Source: Actinoallomurus bryophytorum (GTDB taxonomy: Bacteria; Actinomycetota; Actinomycetes; Streptosporangiales; Streptosporangiaceae). From it: a DNA stretch of 64,000 bases. This document shows positions 47,438 through 55,814 of this stretch, piece after piece. Location: positions 930,001 through 994,000 of the forward strand of contig NZ_VFOZ01000002.1 in NCBI RefSeq assembly GCF_006716425.1, given 5' to 3'. Under the pieces are notes generated by a model. It was not told where the DNA came from and did no database searches. It worked only from the letters and a program-made list of their open reading frames with translations. Each line of letters opens with the position of its first letter. Position 1 is the stretch's first letter. Both the position numbers and the translations under genes were made by a program.

Positions 47438-48019
47438 ATGGAGGACGTCTTCGGCGACAGCCGGATCATGGCCATTCTGCGCGGGCTGCCCGAACGCGAG
47501 ACGGTCGAGCTGGCCGTGCGGGCGTGGGATCTCGGGATCCGGCTGGTCGAGGTGCCGGTGCAGACGCCCGATGCCCTGCCCTCCCTGCGGGCGGTGGTCG
47601 CCGCCGGGCGTGAGCGGGGGCTTCCCGTCGGCGCCGGAACGGTGATCTCGCTGGAGCAGGTACGCGAGGTCGCGGCGGCCGGTGCCGCGTTCACCGTGGC
47701 ACCCGGCTTCGACCCGGCCATCGCCACCGCCTCGGCCGGCATGGGCCTGCCGCACCTGCCGGGCGTGGCCACCCCGGGCGAGATCCAGGCCGCGCTGCGA
47801 CACGGCCTGACCTGGCTCAAGGCGTTCCCCGCGAGCGCCTTGGGCACGGCGTGGTTCACCGCGATGCGCGGACCGTTCCCCCAGATCAACCTGGTGGCCA
47901 CCGGCGGCCTGGACGCACGCACCGCCCCGGACTACCTCGCCGCGGGCGCCCGCGTGGTGGCGGTCGGCTCCGCCCTCGCCGACGCCGAACAGGTCGGCCT
48001 GCTGTCGAAGCTGTGCTGA
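47438..48019 (+). CDS. KDPG/KDPGal-type aldolase (Eda family)
   Basis: This 193-residue class I aldolase should split 2-keto-3-deoxy-6-phospho-sugar acids into pyruvate and glyceraldehyde-3-phosphate. Landmarks are IMAILRGL, RLVEVPVQTP with the catalytic Glu position, GAGTVIS, PHLPGVATPGEI and the Schiff-base lysine in WLKAFPAS. ATG 47438 is preceded by GGAGGG. The frame upstream to 47114 is non-coding. It ends 8 bp before the tRNA-Phe-like repeat that marks the left border of the integrated segment. Confidence 0.85.
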   Translation: MEDVFGDSRIMAILRGLPERETVELAVRAWDLGIRLVEVPVQTPDALPSLRAVVAAGRERGLPVGAGTVISLEQVREVAAAGAAFTVAPGFDPAIATASAGMGLPHLPGVATPGEIQAALRHGLTWLKAFPASALGTAWFTAMRGPFPQINLVATGGLDARTAPDYLAAGARVVAVGSALADAEQVGLLSKLC

Positions 48020-48026
48020 CCGTAGG

Positions 48027-48070
48027 CCTGAAAAGCGGAAGGTCGGCGGTTCGACCCCGCCCCTGCCCAC
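48027..48070 (+). repeat. attL-like direct repeat: 3' half of tRNA-Phe (copy 1)
   Basis: Forty-four bases read anticodon loop CTGAAAA, the 3' anticodon stem, variable loop, T-arm GGCGGTTCGACCCCGCC and acceptor CCTGCCC plus ACC, exactly the 3' half of a tRNA-Phe. There is no 5' half. An identical copy lies at 53227-53270. Confidence 0.85.
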
Positions 48071-48088
48071 CACCTCTGAACAGCCAAG

Positions 48089-48121
48089 ACGCCCCGGAGC
48101 CATCAGGCCCGGGGCGTTTTT
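48089..48121 (+). terminator. Rho-independent terminator after tRNA-Phe half (copy 1)
   Basis: An 8-bp stem CGCCCCGG/CCGGGGCG with an 11-base loop is followed by six T residues, placed as a tRNA terminator. Confidence 0.8.
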
Positions 48122-48144
48122 GACGGCAACGGTGACGGCAACCG

Positions 48145-48771
48145 CTACCGCAGTTCGTCTTCTGAGCAGTGGGGAATGTTGGGTCGCGACATGCCTGGGA
48201 TGACATGCACGTCCGCTTGGGAGACCCAGCCCCCATCACCATCCAGCCAGTACCAGAGGCCCTTCCCCTGTAGTTCGACGTAGCAGCGGACCCATACGGT
48301 TGTGCCGCCGAGGATGGCGCCGTGCGCGTAGCCGGGTGACCCACCAGGCCCATCTGCAGGCCGAAGGATTTGGGGGTCATGGCCATTCGCCGATAGCGCA
48401 TGACTGCCCTCATCGGTCCTAGAGGGGTCAAACCATTGGTGATAAGTGAAGGCTCCTACGGGGATGGCACTGGCGAGGGTCAGCGCAAGCCATAGTGCGT
48501 TGACCTTCTTCTTCAACGACCGAGCCTCTGCGGCCCGCGTCGCTAACGCAACCACGCAAGTGATCGCGGAGCCAGCCAGGAACATCACGAACCAGGGGAC
48601 GTGGGCGATCCCCACGACAGCAGCGACTCCGGAGGATGCGACGCCGATGCTGAGCAGGATCAAGTCCGTGTGTGTCCATAGGCCGACGCTCGATTTCCGC
48701 CTGACGGGCCGTATGCCCTTGGCGTTGGTCTCATCGCTCTTGGAAGGCACAGCGTCATCCATCTCGGTCAT
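48145..48771 (-). CDS. Integral membrane protein of unknown function
   Basis: This 208-residue protein has a basic N-terminal cytoplasmic part and three hydrophobic helices (LILLSIGVASSGVAAVVGI, WFVMFLAGSAITCVVAL, ALWLALTLASAIPVGAF). An external tail of about 90 residues follows, with Gly/Trp-rich strands (GLWYWLDGDGGW). I recognise no family. It is inside the tRNA-Phe-flanked segment, downstream of an integrase remnant, so it is probably cargo of a mobile element. Only a terminator and no clear ribosome site precede the ATG. Confidence 0.55.
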   Translation of the reverse strand: MTEMDDAVPSKSDETNAKGIRPVRRKSSVGLWTHTDLILLSIGVASSGVAAVVGIAHVPWFVMFLAGSAITCVVALATRAAEARSLKKKVNALWLALTLASAIPVGAFTYHQWFDPSRTDEGSHALSANGHDPQILRPADGPGGSPGYAHGAILGGTTVWVRCYVELQGKGLWYWLDGDGGWVSQADVHVIPGMSRPNIPHCSEDELR

Positions 48772-48775
48772 TAGA

Positions 48776-48812
48776 CGAGGATGCCCCGGGATCGGATTCC
48801 GGGGCATCCTCG
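48776..48812 (-). terminator. Perfect 14-bp hairpin after integrase remnant
   Basis: Arms 48776-48789 and 48799-48812 are fully complementary. They follow the integrase stop and precede the membrane protein gene. Confidence 0.75.
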
Positions 48813-48826
48813 TTGGTCTTGCTGTT

Positions 48827-48938
48827 CTAACTCAGTGCGTCTCCTAGCTTCTCGGCTGCCTTCCGTTTCTCGTCGAGTGCGGCGTGTGCGTAGATGGTCA
48901 TCGTGACTCCGATGTCGCTGTGGCCGACGATGTCCCTT
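48827..48938 (-). pseudogene. C-terminal remnant of a tyrosine site-specific integrase (A)
   Basis: The minus strand reads DIVGHSDIGVTMTIYAHA, then a basic helix ending in a stop. This is the GHS...Y end of phage-type tyrosine recombinases, including the nucleophile tyrosine in IYAH. Homology breaks off abruptly at about 48938, where an IS110 fragment begins on the other strand. Only about 36 residues remain, so it cannot be active. Confidence 0.8.
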
Positions 48939-49262
48939 CATCCGCGAGATCGGCGCCATGCTCGAACGCGGCCCGACCGCCGGACAACTCGCAGCCGAAG
49001 TCGGCACGGCACCCGTCACCCGAGCCAGCGGAAAGGTTCCATACGGTCGGGTTCCGACACGCCGCCAACCGGCCCGCGCGCAAAGCCCTGACAATCCCTG
49101 GGTCGCCGACCTCTACCACGCGCTCGCAACCGCGGCAAACGCCACCCACAAACGGTCCGCATCCTCGGTCGCGGCTGGCTCCGCGTCATGCACACCTGCT
49201 TCCGCAACGGCACGCCCTACGAACCCGCCGTCCACACCAGGCATGCCACCACGACTGCTTGA
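48939..49262 (+). pseudogene. IS110-family transposase C-terminal remnant
   Basis: Fragments in different frames read LAAEVGTAPVTRASGK, FRHAANRPARKALT and, near the end, GKRHPQTVRILGRGWLRVMH with CFRNGTPYEP before a stop. This order is that of the C-terminal (transposase_20 and following) region of IS110-type DEDD transposases. At least two frameshifts and loss of the N terminus make it inactive. Confidence 0.75.
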
Positions 49263-49407
49263 GTGCTGCTGCGGCGCTTCCGGTCCTCGCTTCGCTGCGG
49301 TCCGGGTCACCTTGCCACCGAATACCCAACTGCCCGACAGGCCGGGCACTACTACGCTGATCTACGGCTAGATCATCAACCAGCCGACGGCATTGGAGCC
49401 TGGCGTG

Positions 49408-49800
49408 GATGAGCCCACTCTCCTGCGGAATCAACTAGCGCAGGGACCACGGCCGACAGGGCAGGCATCGCCTGGTTTGAAGCTCTAGCCGACAACGAGC
49501 AATTCAACGCACTGCGCAAACTCGCAGACTTCTTTCTCCAAGCCGGCGCAACCGGCCAAGACGCGCAAGACAGCATCCTCAGAGCCGGCATCCGCCCTAC
49601 CCACACTCCCGCCGTGCTGATCACGCGCGGAACATTGCGGTCAGGTTGGCAAGATCACGAACCTGCCACCATACGAACGAACCAAGGCGTTCACACTCCT
49701 GATCGCCTTGTTCAGCATCGCCGACGAAAGACGGCGCACGCACTTGTGCGCCCGACAGTGCAGCCATGCCTGGCACCACCTCGAAAACACGGCCAGTTGA
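49408..49800 (+). pseudogene. DUF5958-family gene, frameshifted
   Basis: A conserved pattern GIAWFEALADNEQF, KLADFFLQAGATGQDAQDSI, RAGIRPTHTPAVLITRG and then, in a shifted frame, ITNLPPYERTKAFTLLIALF and CSHAWHHLENTAS matches DUF5958 proteins as I know them. Frame changes lie near 49460 and 49650. The family's function is unknown and it often sits in accessory regions. Confidence 0.6.
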
Positions 49801-50099
49801 CTCAGGGAACTGCCGCGCGGCTCCCCGACCTGCCTGGCGGTCTGCGTCCGCTTCGCGGCAGAGACGCGATCGACGAGGAGTGACAGGCCCTGGCCCGCAC
49901 GCCGGACAGGGATGACCCCGGGGTACGGCCAGGAGGAACGTCCGGCGGTGCAGCCAGTGCGCTGCCCGGCTGCCCGAGGGCCGCAGGCGGTCGCGCCGGT
50001 ACTGCACGGCCTGCCGAGTCGGACGATGTTGCGAAGGCGCCCGCCCGTGTTCTGGCAGTGGCTGCTGTCCGGCTTCGCCGCCCCGCCGACCGAAGCTAC
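49801..50099. other. No gene recognised
   Basis: This 299-bp stretch between the DUF5958 remnant and the end of the ArsR-type gene shows only frames without recognisable motifs or ribosome sites. Confidence 0.5.
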
Positions 50100-51185
50100 T
50101 CAGCGTAGTACGGCCGCCAGCAGGTCGGCTCCCAGCGCCGTCAGATCGGGCAGATTGAGGGTGTAACGGACGTAACGACCGTGCCGCCGGGCCGTGAGCA
50201 GGCCCGCGCGGCGCAGGGCAGCGAGGTGGCGGGAAACCTCCGGGGGCGAAAGTTCCCAGGCATGGGCCAGCTCACCGGTGGTGTGCGGGCCGCGGGCCAG
50301 GGTGCGCAGCAGCCGCAGCCGTACCGGATGCGCGAGTGCCTCCAGCCGTAGCGTGACCGTTTCCAGCGATACCGGCTCCGGTGGACTCGGCTTGGCGACG
50401 GGGTACTGCACCACCGGCCGCCGCCCGGGCGCGTGGATCGCCACCAGGTGCGGGCGACCGAAGACGCTGGGGAGGAAGGTGACCCCGGTACCGTGGGCGG
50501 CGGTCGCATTGTCCTGCAGCTTGTCCACGATGATGCAGCTGCCGTCCGGCGCCAGGGTCACGGCGCTGGAGACCGACGCGAGTGCCGCCCCGATGCCGTG
50601 GTGCCTCAGCAGGTCGTTCTTCAGGCGCAGGTCGGTGGCGAGTTGCACGGCGACGCCCGTCCAGGCGGCGTCGAAGAAGGCCTCCGCGCACTGTTCGAGG
50701 GTGTGACGCACCCGCGCCCGTACGACGGCCGGGTCCGCGAGCAGCCGTTCCGCGAAGGCCTCTTGGAGCGCGCCGCGGGCCTGGGCCAGGTCCAGGGCCC
50801 GCTCGCGCGCCGTAGCGTCGGCGAGCGGCGACGGCGCGGCGAAGTGGACCCGGTTGCTGCCGCACGTGGTGACGAGTGCGGCGGTCACATAGGTTTCATC
50901 GTCGATCCGGTCCACATCGTCCAACTCCTCGGCGAGGGTCGGCCGGGGACGAGCGGGGACCAGGAAGTCGGCTCGTGAGGAACGCCACAGGAACTCCGCC
51001 TCCCTGAGCCGCCCGGCCAGCTCCGGCCGCAGCCCAGCCCAGACGTCCCCGGCCCAGCCAGCGAGCTGCGGGTGATGCCCGGGTTCGGCCAGCACATGCA
51101 GCATTGCGGTCAGCTCGGCCAGCGGGGAGGCGGCGAACCGCAGTCGCTCGGACGGCAGGCCGCTGATGTCGATCCTCAACGTCAT
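50100..51185 (-). CDS. ArsR-type winged-helix regulator with DUF5937 N-terminal domain
   Basis: This 361-residue protein has a long N-terminal region (about 1-270, opening LRIDISGLPSERLRFAASPL and resembling DUF5937) and a C-terminal winged helix: RLEALAHPVRLRLLRTLARG, TTGELAHAWELSPPEVSRHL and TARRHGRYVRYTL. It should bind DNA and sense an unknown ligand through the N-terminal domain. It diverges from an MFS gene, with a clear dyad between them, so it probably represses that exporter. This pair is the only intact cargo with an evident logic inside the tRNA-Phe-flanked segment. Confidence 0.8.
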   Translation of the reverse strand: MTLRIDISGLPSERLRFAASPLAELTAMLHVLAEPGHHPQLAGWAGDVWAGLRPELAGRLREAEFLWRSSRADFLVPARPRPTLAEELDDVDRIDDETYVTAALVTTCGSNRVHFAAPSPLADATARERALDLAQARGALQEAFAERLLADPAVVRARVRHTLEQCAEAFFDAAWTGVAVQLATDLRLKNDLLRHHGIGAALASVSSAVTLAPDGSCIIVDKLQDNATAAHGTGVTFLPSVFGRPHLVAIHAPGRRPVVQYPVAKPSPPEPVSLETVTLRLEALAHPVRLRLLRTLARGPHTTGELAHAWELSPPEVSRHLAALRRAGLLTARRHGRYVRYTLNLPDLTALGADLLAAVLR

Positions 51186-51226
51186 CCCCTCATCATCGCT
51201 GGTCGGATGGCCGACGACCGCGTCGC

Positions 51227-51243
51227 TTGACGGTATCCGTCAA
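51227..51243. promoter_or_regulatory. Operator dyad between ArsR-type regulator and MFS gene
   Basis: TTGACGG-TAT-CCGTCAA is a perfect inverted repeat with 7-bp arms, 41 bp upstream of each divergent gene start. The left arm also contains a TTGACG -35-like sequence. Confidence 0.65.
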
Positions 51244-51284
51244 CCGACGTGCCCAGCCCGGCGGCCGAACGCACCGTTGACGCC

Positions 51285-52526
51285 ATGGCAACCACCACCA
51301 AGATCCAGCCCCGCGCCCTCGTCCGTGCCTCCGGAGGCCCCCGCTATGCCGTCGCCCTGGCCGTGGACGCGCTCGGCACCGGCTTGCTGCGGCCCTTTCT
51401 GCTGCTCTACGGGGTGACGGTGCTGAGCCTGTCCGCGTCGGCCACAGGCATCGCCATGACGGTCGGCGCCGTCATGGGTCTGGTGTGCATGCCCGCGGTC
51501 GGCCGATGGCTGGACCGGGGCGCACGCAGCACGGTCGTGGCGGCGTCGATGCTGGTGCGGGTGCTGGGCGTGGCGCTGCTGCTGGCCACCCCGGCGGGAC
51601 ACGTCTGGCTGTTCGCGACGGCGGCGCTCTTCCTCGGCATCGGCAACCAGGCATGGCCGGCCGCCCACGCAGCCCTCGTGGCCACGGTCGCCCACGGCCG
51701 CGAACGCGACACCGCTCTCGCGGGAGGCCGCGCCCTGCGCAACGCCGGCCTGGGCGCGGGCGCGATCCTCGCCACCGCGTGCCTGGCGGGCGGCACCACC
51801 GCACTGCAGGCGCTGGCAGCCGTCACCGGGCTCGCCTATCTCGCTGCGGCAGCCTTGGCGTGGTCGGTCCACGTGCACGCTCATCCGGCCGCTACCCCGG
51901 CCAAGGGCAGGGACGACGGGCCCGCACCCTCGATGCGCGCGCTGTTGGCCGCCAACGTGGTCTACGCCTTCTGCCTCAACGTCACCGAAATCGCGGTCCC
52001 TCTGGTCCTGGTGACACAGTTGCACACATCCCCGGTGTGGTCGGCAGCCATCTTCGTGGCCAACACGGTGCTGGTGGTCACCCTGCAGGTACCGGTCACC
52101 GTCCTGATGTCCCGCTTCTCCCGGCGGACCGTGCTGGCTCTCGCCGGCGTGGTACTCACCGCTTCCTACCTCGGCTTCCTCGCGGCCACCTCGCTGGGAC
52201 ACGGCTGGGGTGCCCCGGCCATCGCCACGGTGGCCGTGGTCTGCACCATCGGCGAGATCATCTATGCAGGCAGCGCCACCGCGTTCGTCACCGCCCTCGC
52301 CCCGGCCCACGTCCTGGGACGCGCCCTCGCCCGCTTCCAGCTCTCCACGGGCTTCGGCCTGGCCGCCTCCCCAGCGGTCATCACCGCTCTCGCCTCCCAC
52401 GGCTCGGCCATCCTCTGGGGCAGCCTCGCCGCTGCGACGCTCATCTCCGCCTCCGCCGTTGCCACCGAGAAGGATCAAAGAACGCGGCTCAGCGGTTGTT
52501 GCCGCCGGGCGCGAGCAGGCTCGTGA
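51285..52526 (+). CDS. MFS transporter (DHA1-like)
   Basis: This 413-residue protein of about 12 helices probably expels a small compound. The N-terminal half has DALGTGLLRPFLLLYGV and MPAVGRWLDRGARS (motif A); the second half has NVTEIAVPLVLV. ATG 51285 is preferred over 51249. The last roughly 20 residues (EKDQRTRLSGCCRRARAGS) are hydrophilic and come from sequence antisense to an integrase pseudogene, so the true 3' end may have been replaced when the two were joined near 52485. Divergent from its presumed ArsR-type repressor. Confidence 0.82.
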   Translation: MATTTKIQPRALVRASGGPRYAVALAVDALGTGLLRPFLLLYGVTVLSLSASATGIAMTVGAVMGLVCMPAVGRWLDRGARSTVVAASMLVRVLGVALLLATPAGHVWLFATAALFLGIGNQAWPAAHAALVATVAHGRERDTALAGGRALRNAGLGAGAILATACLAGGTTALQALAAVTGLAYLAAAALAWSVHVHAHPAATPAKGRDDGPAPSMRALLAANVVYAFCLNVTEIAVPLVLVTQLHTSPVWSAAIFVANTVLVVTLQVPVTVLMSRFSRRTVLALAGVVLTASYLGFLAATSLGHGWGAPAIATVAVVCTIGEIIYAGSATAFVTALAPAHVLGRALARFQLSTGFGLAASPAVITALASHGSAILWGSLAAATLISASAVATEKDQRTRLSGCCRRARAGS

Positions 52527-52955
52527 GCTCGGCGATCGCCTCGGGGAGACGGCTTGAAGTAGCGGCGGACGTTCTCCGGCTTCTAGTGCCGGGATATCGC
52601 CATCAGCATCAACAGCGAGGCGCCCTGTTCGCCGAGATAGGTCAGGGCGGAGTGACGGTACTCATGCAGGCCCCACAGCCCGTCCCGGGCCCGCGCACGG
52701 CTGTGTGCTCGTCGAGCAGCGCGCGAGCCTGTCCGTACGACTGGCGGGCCAACCTGGTGTCTGGGCAGACGTCGCGGGGGGCGGACGACCTTGCTCGGCC
52801 CCGGGTCGGCGGTGGGTGACGAACACAGGCCCGCGCATGCGGCCCTTCAGCAGACGGGACAGCAGCCGGACGGTGCCGGCATCCCATTACACGGGCTCCA
52901 GCACGTAGTCCTCGCGAGCCTGGCCCCGGCGGCGGGTTTTGGTCCGGGCGCCCTT
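52489..52955 (-). pseudogene. Tyrosine integrase C-terminal pseudogene (B)
   Basis: The minus strand shows REDYVLEPV, stop, [76 protein letters not shown], stop, KPENVRRYFKPSP, then EAIAELTSLLAPG after a one-base shift. The HxYRH box, histidine SRH and tyrosine RRY are the R-H-Y elements of a tyrosine recombinase. Two in-frame stops and at least two frameshifts inactivate it. It is unrelated in detail to remnant A. Confidence 0.75.
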
Positions 52956-53104
52956 ACTGGATATCGAACAGGTCCACCCGCCGGGAACGTGACCGCTCGG
53001 GCTCCAGTGGACTGGTCGTCGCGTCCGGTAGCGAGGTGTAGAAGGTCATGCGCCCAAGCGTCCGCACGCTGACTTGCGGGTCGCATGACGTGCCGGCCCA
53101 CGGC

Positions 53105-53241
53105 GAATGCACATGCGGCCTGACGACAACGTTGACGACTACGTCCCCTTCCATCGGCTCACATGGGCACACGTCGACCACCGTCTGACCTCGGCTCGGA
53201 TGCTGCGAGCAGGGCTGATGTCACTTCTGAAAAGCGGAAGG
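53105..53241 (+). repeat. Element-end repeat, copy 1
   Basis: About 137 bp ending in the first bases of the tRNA-Phe half match 54798-54922 closely, including CTCACATGGGCACAC, CACCGTCTGACCTCGGC and CTTCTGAAAAGCGGAAGG. Copy 1 has an 11-bp extra segment. It appears to be a conserved end of an integrated element abutting its att site. Confidence 0.75.
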
Positions 53242-53270
53242 TCGGCGGTTCGACCCCGCCCCTGCCCACC
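53227..53270 (+). repeat. attR-like direct repeat: 3' half of tRNA-Phe (copy 2)
   Basis: Identical over 44 bases to 48027-48070, and exactly 5,200 bp from it. It differs only in flanking sequence and has no 5' tRNA half. It marks the right border of the integrated segment. Confidence 0.85.
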
Positions 53271-53285
53271 GCCAAAGATCAGCGA

Positions 53286-53326
53286 AAACAGCGCCCGACC
53301 TACATGAACAGGTCCGGGCGCTGTTT
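53286..53326 (+). terminator. Terminator after tRNA-Phe half (copy 2)
   Basis: Perfect 12-bp arms AAACAGCGCCCG (53286-53297) and CGGGCGCTGTTT (53315-53326) with a 17-base loop. The sequence differs from the terminator after copy 1. The next 300 bases hold no recognisable gene. Confidence 0.75.
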
Positions 53327-53636
53327 GCTTTCTGTCCGGCTGTGTACGGCCGTGACCGGGTGGCGGCGGGTGACTGTGCCAAATACGTGCCGAAGCCCTG
53401 GCCTCAATGAGCTGCCTCGATGTGCTTGTGGGCAACAGGCTCGGAGCGACCTGGGGTGGGCGCGATGGTGATGGCGGCGAAGCCAGCAGTCCGGAGCTGG
53501 TCACGGTAGACGGAAGTGACGTTCCCGAGGCACAGCCGACCTGTTGCTCTGCCGCCCCCTTACCGCAGCCGATGTGCAGTGCCGCTGTCGACCGGCCGCG
53601 ACACTGCACCCGTTGGTGGCCCACGCCGTCCGGGCC

Positions 53637-53830
53637 TTACGAGAGTGGGCCGGCCGGGGGTGTCGTGATGTATGGACGCCCGGCAACCACTTCAGGCCCG
53701 GTCCAGCGGATGAGTTGCTCGCACACCAGCCGGACGCCGAGCGCCGAGACCATGCCCGTGGCGATCGAGATGGGGATGCCCAGCCAGGGCGGCGACCGCG
53801 CAGCGGATTCAGGGCGCAGGCTGGTCTCGG
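53637..53830 (-). pseudogene. Possible small membrane-protein remnant
   Basis: A minus-strand frame without ATG at its head reads PPWLGIPISIATGMVSALG, RLVCEQLIRWTGPEVVAG and YITTPPAGPLS before a stop. This is protein-like composition with one hydrophobic segment. It overlaps the end of the upstream gene in another frame, as a coupled downstream gene would. Its start may be lost by mutation. Confidence 0.3.
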
Positions 53831-54255
53831 CTCCAGATTTGAACGCCCCGCGGAAGGTCCTCGATGCCGCCGCCTTCGGGGATCATGCCCCAGAGGAAGG
53901 GGATCAGGTACTGAGGTGGTTCGCCCAGGAGCGCGACAAGGTCGTCCTCAGTAATGGTGAGGGTGAATCCTGAGCCCGTTCGCCCCGAGTCCCATCCTTG
54001 TTCGATGGCCCGTCGGATGCAGCCACTGACGAGAACGGGACGGATTGCGATCGTTCGCTCTCCCAGCCAGTTGTCTGGCCGGGCGCAAGGGAGTGTCACC
54101 ATAAGAACGCTCACCGGCTCCTCGGCGCGCTCAACGGCGAAGGTGAGAGGGGCCCAGTTGTTGCCCTGGCTGTAGGTCGGCTTGTGTCTGACTAGCCAGC
54201 GGTAGACGGTGCCGTCGACGGCGATGGACCGTGAGCCCTTCTTGGGCATCGCCAT
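53809..54255 (-). CDS. Conserved actinobacterial hypothetical protein
   Basis: This 148-residue soluble protein opens MPKKGSRSIAVDGTVYRWLV and contains PTYSQGNNWAPLTFAVE, VTLPCARPDNWLGE and IRPVLVSGCIRRAIEQGWD, a pattern I recall from uncharacterised actinobacterial proteins. ATG 54255 (or 54249) gives the normal start; upstream codons to 54585 look non-coding. It lies outside the 5.2-kb repeat pair but before the third repeat, so it may be cargo of a second element. Function is unknown. Confidence 0.6.
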   Translation of the reverse strand: MAMPKKGSRSIAVDGTVYRWLVRHKPTYSQGNNWAPLTFAVERAEEPVSVLMVTLPCARPDNWLGERTIAIRPVLVSGCIRRAIEQGWDSGRTGSGFTLTITEDDLVALLGEPPQYLIPFLWGMIPEGGGIEDLPRGVQIWSRDQPAP

Positions 54256-54797
54256 GGCCGCCTCCGTGCTTGCTGTTGTTCCGGCGCTGTTCCGTGGGGG
54301 CACCACAATCAGCGAGGAGTGATGCGAGACGACCGAAAGTGTAATCGCTGCATATCCACGGTTTACAGGGTCCAAACCAAGGTGCTTGGCTCGGTACTGC
54401 ACCTGGGAACGGCGATTTCTCTCTCGGGCGCGCTGAAAAGAAGCAAGGGGGCTTCCGCGAAGGGAGCACCCGCACCTGCGGCCTCTCCTGATGCGCGCGG
54501 AGATGCGCAAGTTCCTTGAATCGAGCCGGCTGCCCGGTGGCTGGCAGATTGGCGGAGACTGCCGACTCATGGGACAGCCGCACATCGTCCATGCGGAGCA
54601 CGATCTGGAGATGCGATTCCTCAGAGAGAGGAGGCGCGCCTATCCAGGCGGCGTCCCCGGGGCAGGGAAGAACCGCGCCTGACACGAGCGGTGGACCGGC
54701 CCATCACTGGACTTCGACCTCCCATCGCCCCATCTCCGCGTCGTCCTAACCGACCGCACCCTGACTCGCGGATCCCGCGACGAGCCGGGCCTATGGG
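54256..54797. other. Gene-poor stretch
   Basis: This 542-bp region contains only short frames (for example 54491-54682, plus strand, 63 codons, RFLRERRRAYPGG) without a family match. It probably holds decayed element DNA. Confidence 0.4.
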
Positions 54798-54922
54798 GAA
54801 CGCGCATGCGACCTGACGACAACGTCGCCTTCCAGCGGCTCACATGGGCACACATCGATCACCGTCTGACCTCGGCAGGAGCGCTGCGACCAGGGCCGAT
54901 GTCGCTTCTGAAAAGCGGAAGG
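54798..54922 (+). repeat. Element-end repeat, copy 2, with truncated att core
   Basis: It matches 53105-53241 up to and including CTTCTGAAAAGCGGAAGG, then diverges at 54923. Only the first 16 bases of the tRNA-Phe half remain. It looks like the border of a second, partly deleted integration at the same site. Confidence 0.7.
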
Positions 54923-55025
54923 CCTGCCAGCAGCTCGAAAAGTCCAGCCTCGGTGAGGATCCCGCAGCGAAACACCAGGTCACCGTGCGAAACCGAGGTT
55001 TCGAGCCCAACAGGTGCGCAAGAGG

Positions 55026-55814
55026 TCAAAGGGTGGTGACCATGCCGCCGTCGATGAGCACGTCGGTTCCGGTGATGTTGCCGACGGTGCCGGAGGCGAG
55101 GAGCAGCACGAGTTCGGCGACTTCACCGGGGCGGGTGAACCGTTCAGTCGGGGTTCCGGCGACCGCTGCGGCCTTCACAGCGGCCGGGTCGACCGCTTGT
55201 GCCCGTCCTACGGTTTCAGCGACGCCGCCCTGGCCGAGCCATAGAGCGGTTTCGACCGGCCCGGGGCTGACGGTGTTGACCCGGACCCCGCGTGGTCCGA
55301 GTTCCTTCGACAAGGATTTGCAGAAGCTCCGCAATGCCGCCTTGGCCGCGCTGTAGTCGATCACGCCGGGATCAGGCAGCGAGGCGTTGACCGAACAGAC
55401 GGTCACGATGGTGGACGGGGCCCGCTCGAGTAGGTGGGGTACGGCCGCGCGGGTCGCGCGTACGGCGGATAGGAGGTTCACCTCCAGTGCCCACTGCCAG
55501 TCCTCGTCTGTGACGCTGAGGAATCCTCCGGTGCGGGGGTGGACTCCGCCGACGTTGTTGACGAGCACGTCCACCCCGCCGAAGCGGGCCACCGCCTCGT
55601 CCACGAGGGCCTGGCATCCCGATGTGGTGGTGAGGTCGCCCAGGACGATGGCGACGTCACCCTGGTCGGCGAGGCCGCTGAGGCCGGCGGAGTTCTCCCG
55701 CGCTCCCGCCGCGACGCGGGCTCCCTCCCGGATCATGCCTTGCGCCACCGCGAGCCCGATTCCTTTGCTGGCGCCCGTGATGACGGTGGCCTTGCCGGCG
55801 AGGTCGAGGTTCAC
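55026..55814 (-). CDS. Short-chain dehydrogenase/reductase (classical SDR)
   Basis: This 262-residue NAD(P)-dependent oxidoreductase has VITGASKGIGLAVAQ (cofactor loop), NNVGGV, the catalytic serine in TVCSVNASL, YSAAKAALRSF with Tyr and Lys, and SPGPVETALW. GTG 55814 overlaps the stop of the upstream hydrolase as GTGA, so the two are coupled. Upstream codons of the long frame (to 56747) are antisense or shifted hydrolase sequence and not used. Substrate unknown; hydrolase plus SDR suggests a two-step conversion of an ester or carbonyl. Confidence 0.9.
   Translation of the reverse strand: MNLDLAGKATVITGASKGIGLAVAQGMIREGARVAAGARENSAGLSGLADQGDVAIVLGDLTTTSGCQALVDEAVARFGGVDVLVNNVGGVHPRTGGFLSVTDEDWQWALEVNLLSAVRATRAAVPHLLERAPSTIVTVCSVNASLPDPGVIDYSAAKAALRSFCKSLSKELGPRGVRVNTVSPGPVETALWLGQGGVAETVGRAQAVDPAAVKAAAVAGTPTERFTRPGEVAELVLLLASGTVGNITGTDVLIDGGMVTTL

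Follow-up and report, generated by a model that had tools for sequence, protein, structure and literature searches.

Why does a repeat that includes part of a tRNA-Phe gene stand here behind an unrelated sugar-metabolism gene, that of an aldolase, when elements of this type sit behind tRNA-Phe in related bacteria? The question arises in the window, by which we mean the whole 64,000-nucleotide stretch of the Actinoallomurus bryophytorum genome that was analysed. The locus probably represents a tandem of two related integrative elements, both decayed, at an ectopic site outside any tRNA gene.

Repeated att ends, arm motif and cargo

Local alignment of 53000-53300 with 54700-55000 returned a genuine repeat, in which 53053-53241 and 54745-54922 share 152 identical positions against 24 mismatches and 15 gap columns, for a score of 187. 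This bears out the original prediction of some 125-137 bp of repeat at 80-90% identity, the repeat being slightly longer. A separate repeat search of the window paired 53133-53246 with 54814-54927 (87%) and 53095-53132 with 54788-54825 (84%). Chance similarity can be dismissed with near certainty as the source: against the real score of 187, the best of 1,000 dinucleotide-preserving shuffles of the second stretch reached 32, the P-arm sequence recurs in other genomes, and no evidence in favour of chance was found.

The repeat consists of P-arm and att core, and its copies match the right ends of two worn tandem units, a and b (Table 1). The window contains three cores, at 48028 and 53227 with the entire tRNA-Phe 3' half and at 54908 with 15 bases. 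From left to right, the island comprises the aldolase gene, core 1 (starting 8 bases past the aldolase stop), a motif pair, unit a, a P-arm with a motif pair, core 2, unit b, a P-arm with one motif, core 3, an IS end and an SDR gene. The tandem arrangement of two related elements, the tRNA-Phe-type att cores and the cargo between them, all part of the original prediction, are upheld. Among the matches listed, the P-arm of unit a is 78.5% identical over 470 bp to an att region of another genome (G001), with the match spanning the core.

Table 1 Features of the island, in window coordinates
Feature	Position	Strand	Evidence or remark
KDPG/KHG aldolase (eda-like), full length, left flank	47438..48019	+	Pfam PF01081 1.6e-38; homologues align over 1-193
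Unit a	48028-53226		5199 bp
att core 1, tRNA-Phe 3' half, unit a left end	48028..48071	+	No tRNA 5' half or P-arm before it
Paired motif TGACGGCAAC, putative arm sites	48121..48143	+	+93 and +105 of core 1; motif search
220-aa ORF, membrane-like by eye, unit a cargo	48145..48807	-	No family match (Pfam, NCBIfam)
Relic, ~35 C-terminal codons, tRNA-Phe-associated tyrosine integrase	48833..48940	-	91% over 35 aa to G003 fragment
DUF5937 + ArsR-type HTH regulator, unit a cargo	50100..51185	-	PF19361 1e-113, PF01022 9.7e-13
MFS transporter, unit a cargo, divergent from the DUF5937-ArsR regulator	51249..52526	+	PF07690 3e-28
P-arm, unit a right end	52957..53226	+	Last 174 bp repeated at 54745-54907
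Paired motif, TGACGACAAC and TGACGACTAC (one mismatch)	53121..53143	+	-106 and -94 of core 2; motif search
Unit b	53227-54907		1681 bp
att core 2, full tRNA-Phe 3' half, unit a/b junction	53227..53270	+	
ORF, unit b cargo, 148 aa from Met at 54255	53809..54255	-	258 aa from first Met
P-arm, unit b right end, second repeat copy	54745..54907	+	Local alignment
Motif TGACGACAACG	54814..54824	+	-94 of core 3; motif search
att core 3, 15 bp only	54908..54922	+	Alignment
IS end, terminal ~90 bp	54928..55015		Alignment with L144; ends of other copies
SDR oxidoreductase, part of longer open frame, right flank	55026..55598	-	PF13561 5.6e-40 for 55029-55598

The cores open with the tRNA-Phe anticodon loop CTGAAAA, which in the tRNA is flanked by TCCGC and GCGGA; from this layout, the loop may be the overlap of recombination and the stem halves the core-binding sites. 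The 15-mer core occurs 27 times in eight genomes of the genus (its backward control, 0 times). By our reading of the flanks, an intact tRNA-Phe gene contains 7 of these copies, a P-arm precedes 17 (of which two are diverged or partial), and left junctions that are not a tRNA account for the other 3.

Copies of TGACGRCAAC, 12 bp apart, stand at about -106/-94 and +93/+105 of cores and are putative arm-type sites. In unit a, each core is accompanied by such a pair, and a single copy carries a mismatch; unit b begins with a full core lacking the motif and ends with a P-arm, one motif and the 15-bp core. In 26 stretches totalling 366 kb, 42 of 49 occurrences fall within -112 to -88 or +88 to +110 of one of 67 cores; the motif was chosen after viewing these ends, and the 42 are not independent because the copies share descent. 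None is on the other strand, and 300 shuffled motifs gave a mean of 0.62 occurrences, with at most 3 near cores. A core-near motif is present in only 14 of the 26 stretches. The link between motif and integrase is weak, because of four arrays with an open integrase one (G057) has the motif and three (G013, G132 and G157) lack it. At L242 5903 (G108, reverse-complement coordinates) the motif pair lies at -40/-28 of the core, not -106/-94, as if 66 core-adjacent bp had been lost; at L154 5175-5249 (G004:C367) a tRNA-Phe call by ARAGORN looks false and composed of arm plus tRNA half, since a P-arm precedes the core.

The integrase of unit a is lost apart from the C-terminal relic, which is 86% identical to the G057 integrase; a genome search gave 83% over 36 codons with one TGA inside. 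Related open integrases of one family (65-90% identical) lie in the tRNA-Phe arrays of the four genomes named above, all of other genera than the source; that of G057 occupies an open frame of 459 codons. Apart from the relic, the search of the source genome found only integrases 32-47% identical, and none able to serve unit b. A minus-strand frame at 52586-52846 looks, by eye, like the C-terminal box of a further tyrosine recombinase; it has no Pfam match and was not counted as a cognate integrase. A Pfam scan of seven frames of units a and b returned no rep or tra match.

The ORF of unit b (frame 53809-54585) has no match in Pfam (E <= 0.01) or NCBIfam (E <= 0.001), and the label 'conserved hypothetical' given to it earlier is fair for its C-terminal half, where relatives were found. 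These occur in 12 of 72,556 records of a plasmid collection (10 of the 12 from Streptomyces), none reaching 80% query coverage; one tRNA-Phe unit from a different genus (L251, G057) also has a match, at 41% over 109 aa. In 24 kb at a relative in Nonomuraea gerenzanensis there is neither a tRNA-Phe core nor a tRNA.

The insertion site

The place is not a tRNA-Phe gene, a point on which the original prediction needs correction. ARAGORN calls no tRNA in the window; a search for RNA families gave two matches, both far below gathering scores. The intact tRNA-Phe that was found belongs to contig C1 in this 9.47-Mb assembly, beside tRNA-Asp and tRNA-Glu and with further cores downstream. The island is therefore not a tRNA-Phe integrative element in place.

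Compared with shuffles, the DNA left of core 1 contains neither a tRNA 5' half (shuffle fraction 0.364) nor a P-arm (0.092). Two more left junctions of this kind are present in the genus, at G006:C30:150380 (0.528 and 0.232) and G002:C33:270624 (0.186 and 0.218), and all three start at the identical base, the first of CTGAAAA. This shared start fits site-specific insertion at secondary sites.

An integrase need not have been involved if the island were a copied or translocated piece of the C1 tRNA-Phe array, moved by homologous recombination between repeats. The att ends of that array are indeed close to those of the island (92% over 171 bp around the core). However, neither a protein search nor a comparison of unit interiors matched any cargo of unit a or b in the 30 kb of C1 covered, and at all three non-tRNA left junctions found the break falls on the core's first base, a count that is one-sided because breakpoints within the core would escape the search. 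We consider such a transfer unlikely.

A still more improbable reading places the start of the array further left. At G000:C2:828714-828757 (L009), 149 kb to the left of the island, there is a tRNA-Phe 3' half in degenerate form, 84% identical over 44 bp; were it the first tRNA-Phe site, the 149 kb between would form one giant island. Against this, the DNA upstream of 828714 resembles a tRNA no better than shuffled sequence does (fraction 0.494), and there is no P-arm ahead of 48028. A tRNA pseudogene before 48028 or before 828714 was rejected on the same comparison, the upstream DNA being no better than shuffles.

No empty site was found: the seven other genomes of the genus have no close homologue of the aldolase (best 43% identity), and the right flank as one stretch is absent from them. 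A tblastn search with the window proteins found no neighbour pattern in common with the window near aldolase homologues in the genus, in 100 genomes or in the named genomes (61 loci). For the island at G002:C33, the left flank is present in seven genomes, and the DNA right of G002:C13, its guessed other end, is not adjacent there; the left flank of the island at G006:C30 was found in its own genome only.

Under tandem insertion at a secondary site, a tyrosine integrase of the tRNA-Phe-associated family would cut at CTGAAAA and place a first circle behind the aldolase gene. This insertion would leave, at its left end, a complete tRNA half into which the second element could integrate by accretion. 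Later decay of the integrase genes would have turned the units into CIME-like relics, one with a regulator/MFS pair and the other with a small hypothetical gene.

The third core and the IS end

The second repeat copy does end inside the tRNA half, as had been noted; 15 bases are kept (54908-54922, CTGAAAAGCGGAAGG), not 16. Immediately beyond lies a feature that the original prediction had missed: the 15-bp core is followed by the last 90 bp or so of an IS. DNA from 54928 onwards matches the terminal part of the IS, whose end maps near 55013, about 12 bp before the SDR stop. The ORFs of two other IS copies match transposase-type HTH models in Pfam, with only HTH_32 on the L144 ORF reaching the cut-off.

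Most likely, the tRNA half past the third core was lost in a deletion that also took the body of the neighbouring IS; a deletion joining core to IS is the simplest reading. The earlier proposal of a partly deleted outer element was thus half right. DNA is missing, but it lies beyond unit b and is not the outer unit's own end, because unit b ends on the right in the third core and still has its P-arm.

Alternatively, the third core may never have been truncated: an element could have integrated at a secondary site whose natural sequence already matched the core over about 15 bp, making this its original right end, with no tRNA half ever present. All three non-tRNA left junctions begin exactly at CTGAAAA, as a recombinase would leave them, and short cores recur, with 17, 17 and 22 bp kept at other right junctions (G002:C13, G140 and G007). 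We take this for a real possibility, albeit with the balance tilted against it: equal base use would predict about 0.02 chance matches of 15 bp in 9.5 Mb, the island on its right runs into the interior of an IS end instead of a clean flank, and the short core of G007 lies at the tRNA-Phe locus itself, where the tRNA half must once have existed. The 17-bp core of G140 (L244 15214) lies inside an array, with another unit after it.

Arrays in the family and known systems

The 17-mer core is present in 313 of 341 genomes of the family, with up to seven copies in some. There are at least 42 intervals between cores, leaving out one pair 202 kb apart (G045), cores on separate contigs and decayed cores; 19 of the 42 listed are below 3 kb, the shortest being 777 bp and the longest 18.5 kb. 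Cargo is shared between different positions: unit 4 of G001 is 90% identical over 860 bp to unit 1 of the non-tRNA island at G006:C30, unit 1 of G007 is 88.8% identical over 785 bp to unit 1 of G108, from another genus, and unit 2 of G000:C1 is 97% identical over 2339 bp to the stretch past the last G001 core. Common descent of the arrays with rearrangement may account for this sharing. A PIN/Phd toxin-antitoxin pair makes up a whole 1.1-kb unit in G007:C1 (L150 6740-7470), a unit 91% identical over 689 bp to the stretch past the last core in G002:C9. Tandem tRNA-Phe cores, many 0.8-4 kb apart and with few integrase genes or fragments seen, occur across the family, for example at G108:C40:190028-208237 (L242, L243), G140:C22 (L244) and G001:C3 (L147).

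The tRNA-Phe 3' half might act in this family as the joint of mobile cassette arrays, an idea that we regard as doubtful. Short units without an integrase (down to 0.8 kb) would retain their att ends, and passing elements would supply the tRNA-Phe integrases that move them in trans, both at tRNA-Phe and occasionally elsewhere. Such cut-out and re-insertion would be similar to that of integrons, with a different recombination site. The island itself is not an integron gene cassette array: its att site is a tRNA 3' half, not an attC with an IntI-type integrase, and the related integrases are Phage_integrase proteins with a SAM-like N-domain that score 22-31 bits against an integron-integrase cut-off of 265. 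Among titles and abstract openings, we recognised nothing equivalent on short units bounded by tRNA sequence or on islands at tRNA-Phe for this family, which leaves their absence from the literature unproven.

Tycheposons, of another phylum, are cargo-bearing tRNA-associated elements and are likened here by description only. The AICEs pSE211 and pMEA100 use tRNA-Phe and are full plasmid-like elements; they have a tyrosine integrase and possibly the same target as the island, again by description only. The island is not an AICE, which would have an integrase, rep and a tra module between its att sites: the integrase is a relic, and the scanned frames gave no rep or tra match. As excerpted, earlier accounts report AICE accretion at tRNA-Arg in Streptomyces (PMC9513070) and tandem AICEs in Frankia and S. 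avermitilis, with tRNA remnants as sites (PMC3218068). These systems likewise combine actinomycete att sites in a tRNA 3' half with the clustering of multiple elements plus a remnant at a single site; the island differs in its tRNA, its shorter units and the lack of rep/tra matches in the scanned ORFs.

Accretion followed by decay is an established kind of mechanism. The excerpted text of PMC5704250 describes accretion by successive site-specific integration and decay to CIMEs, which lack integration genes and keep their att sites. Units a and b resemble these in being stacked, in retaining att sites at both ends and in having lost their integration genes, of which only the C-terminal relic is left; they differ in their non-tRNA place and in the length of one unit, only 1.7 kb, for which the genome search turned up no integrase fit to serve it. 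What is unusual is the location away from a tRNA gene, together with units that are short and carry no integrase. The island is one more case of integrative-element accretion and decay, and its value lies in clear boundaries, within which arms, cores and the integrase relic are legible; it points to short att-bounded units across the family, which could reveal whether cargo lacking an integrase is mobile in trans at a tRNA gene.
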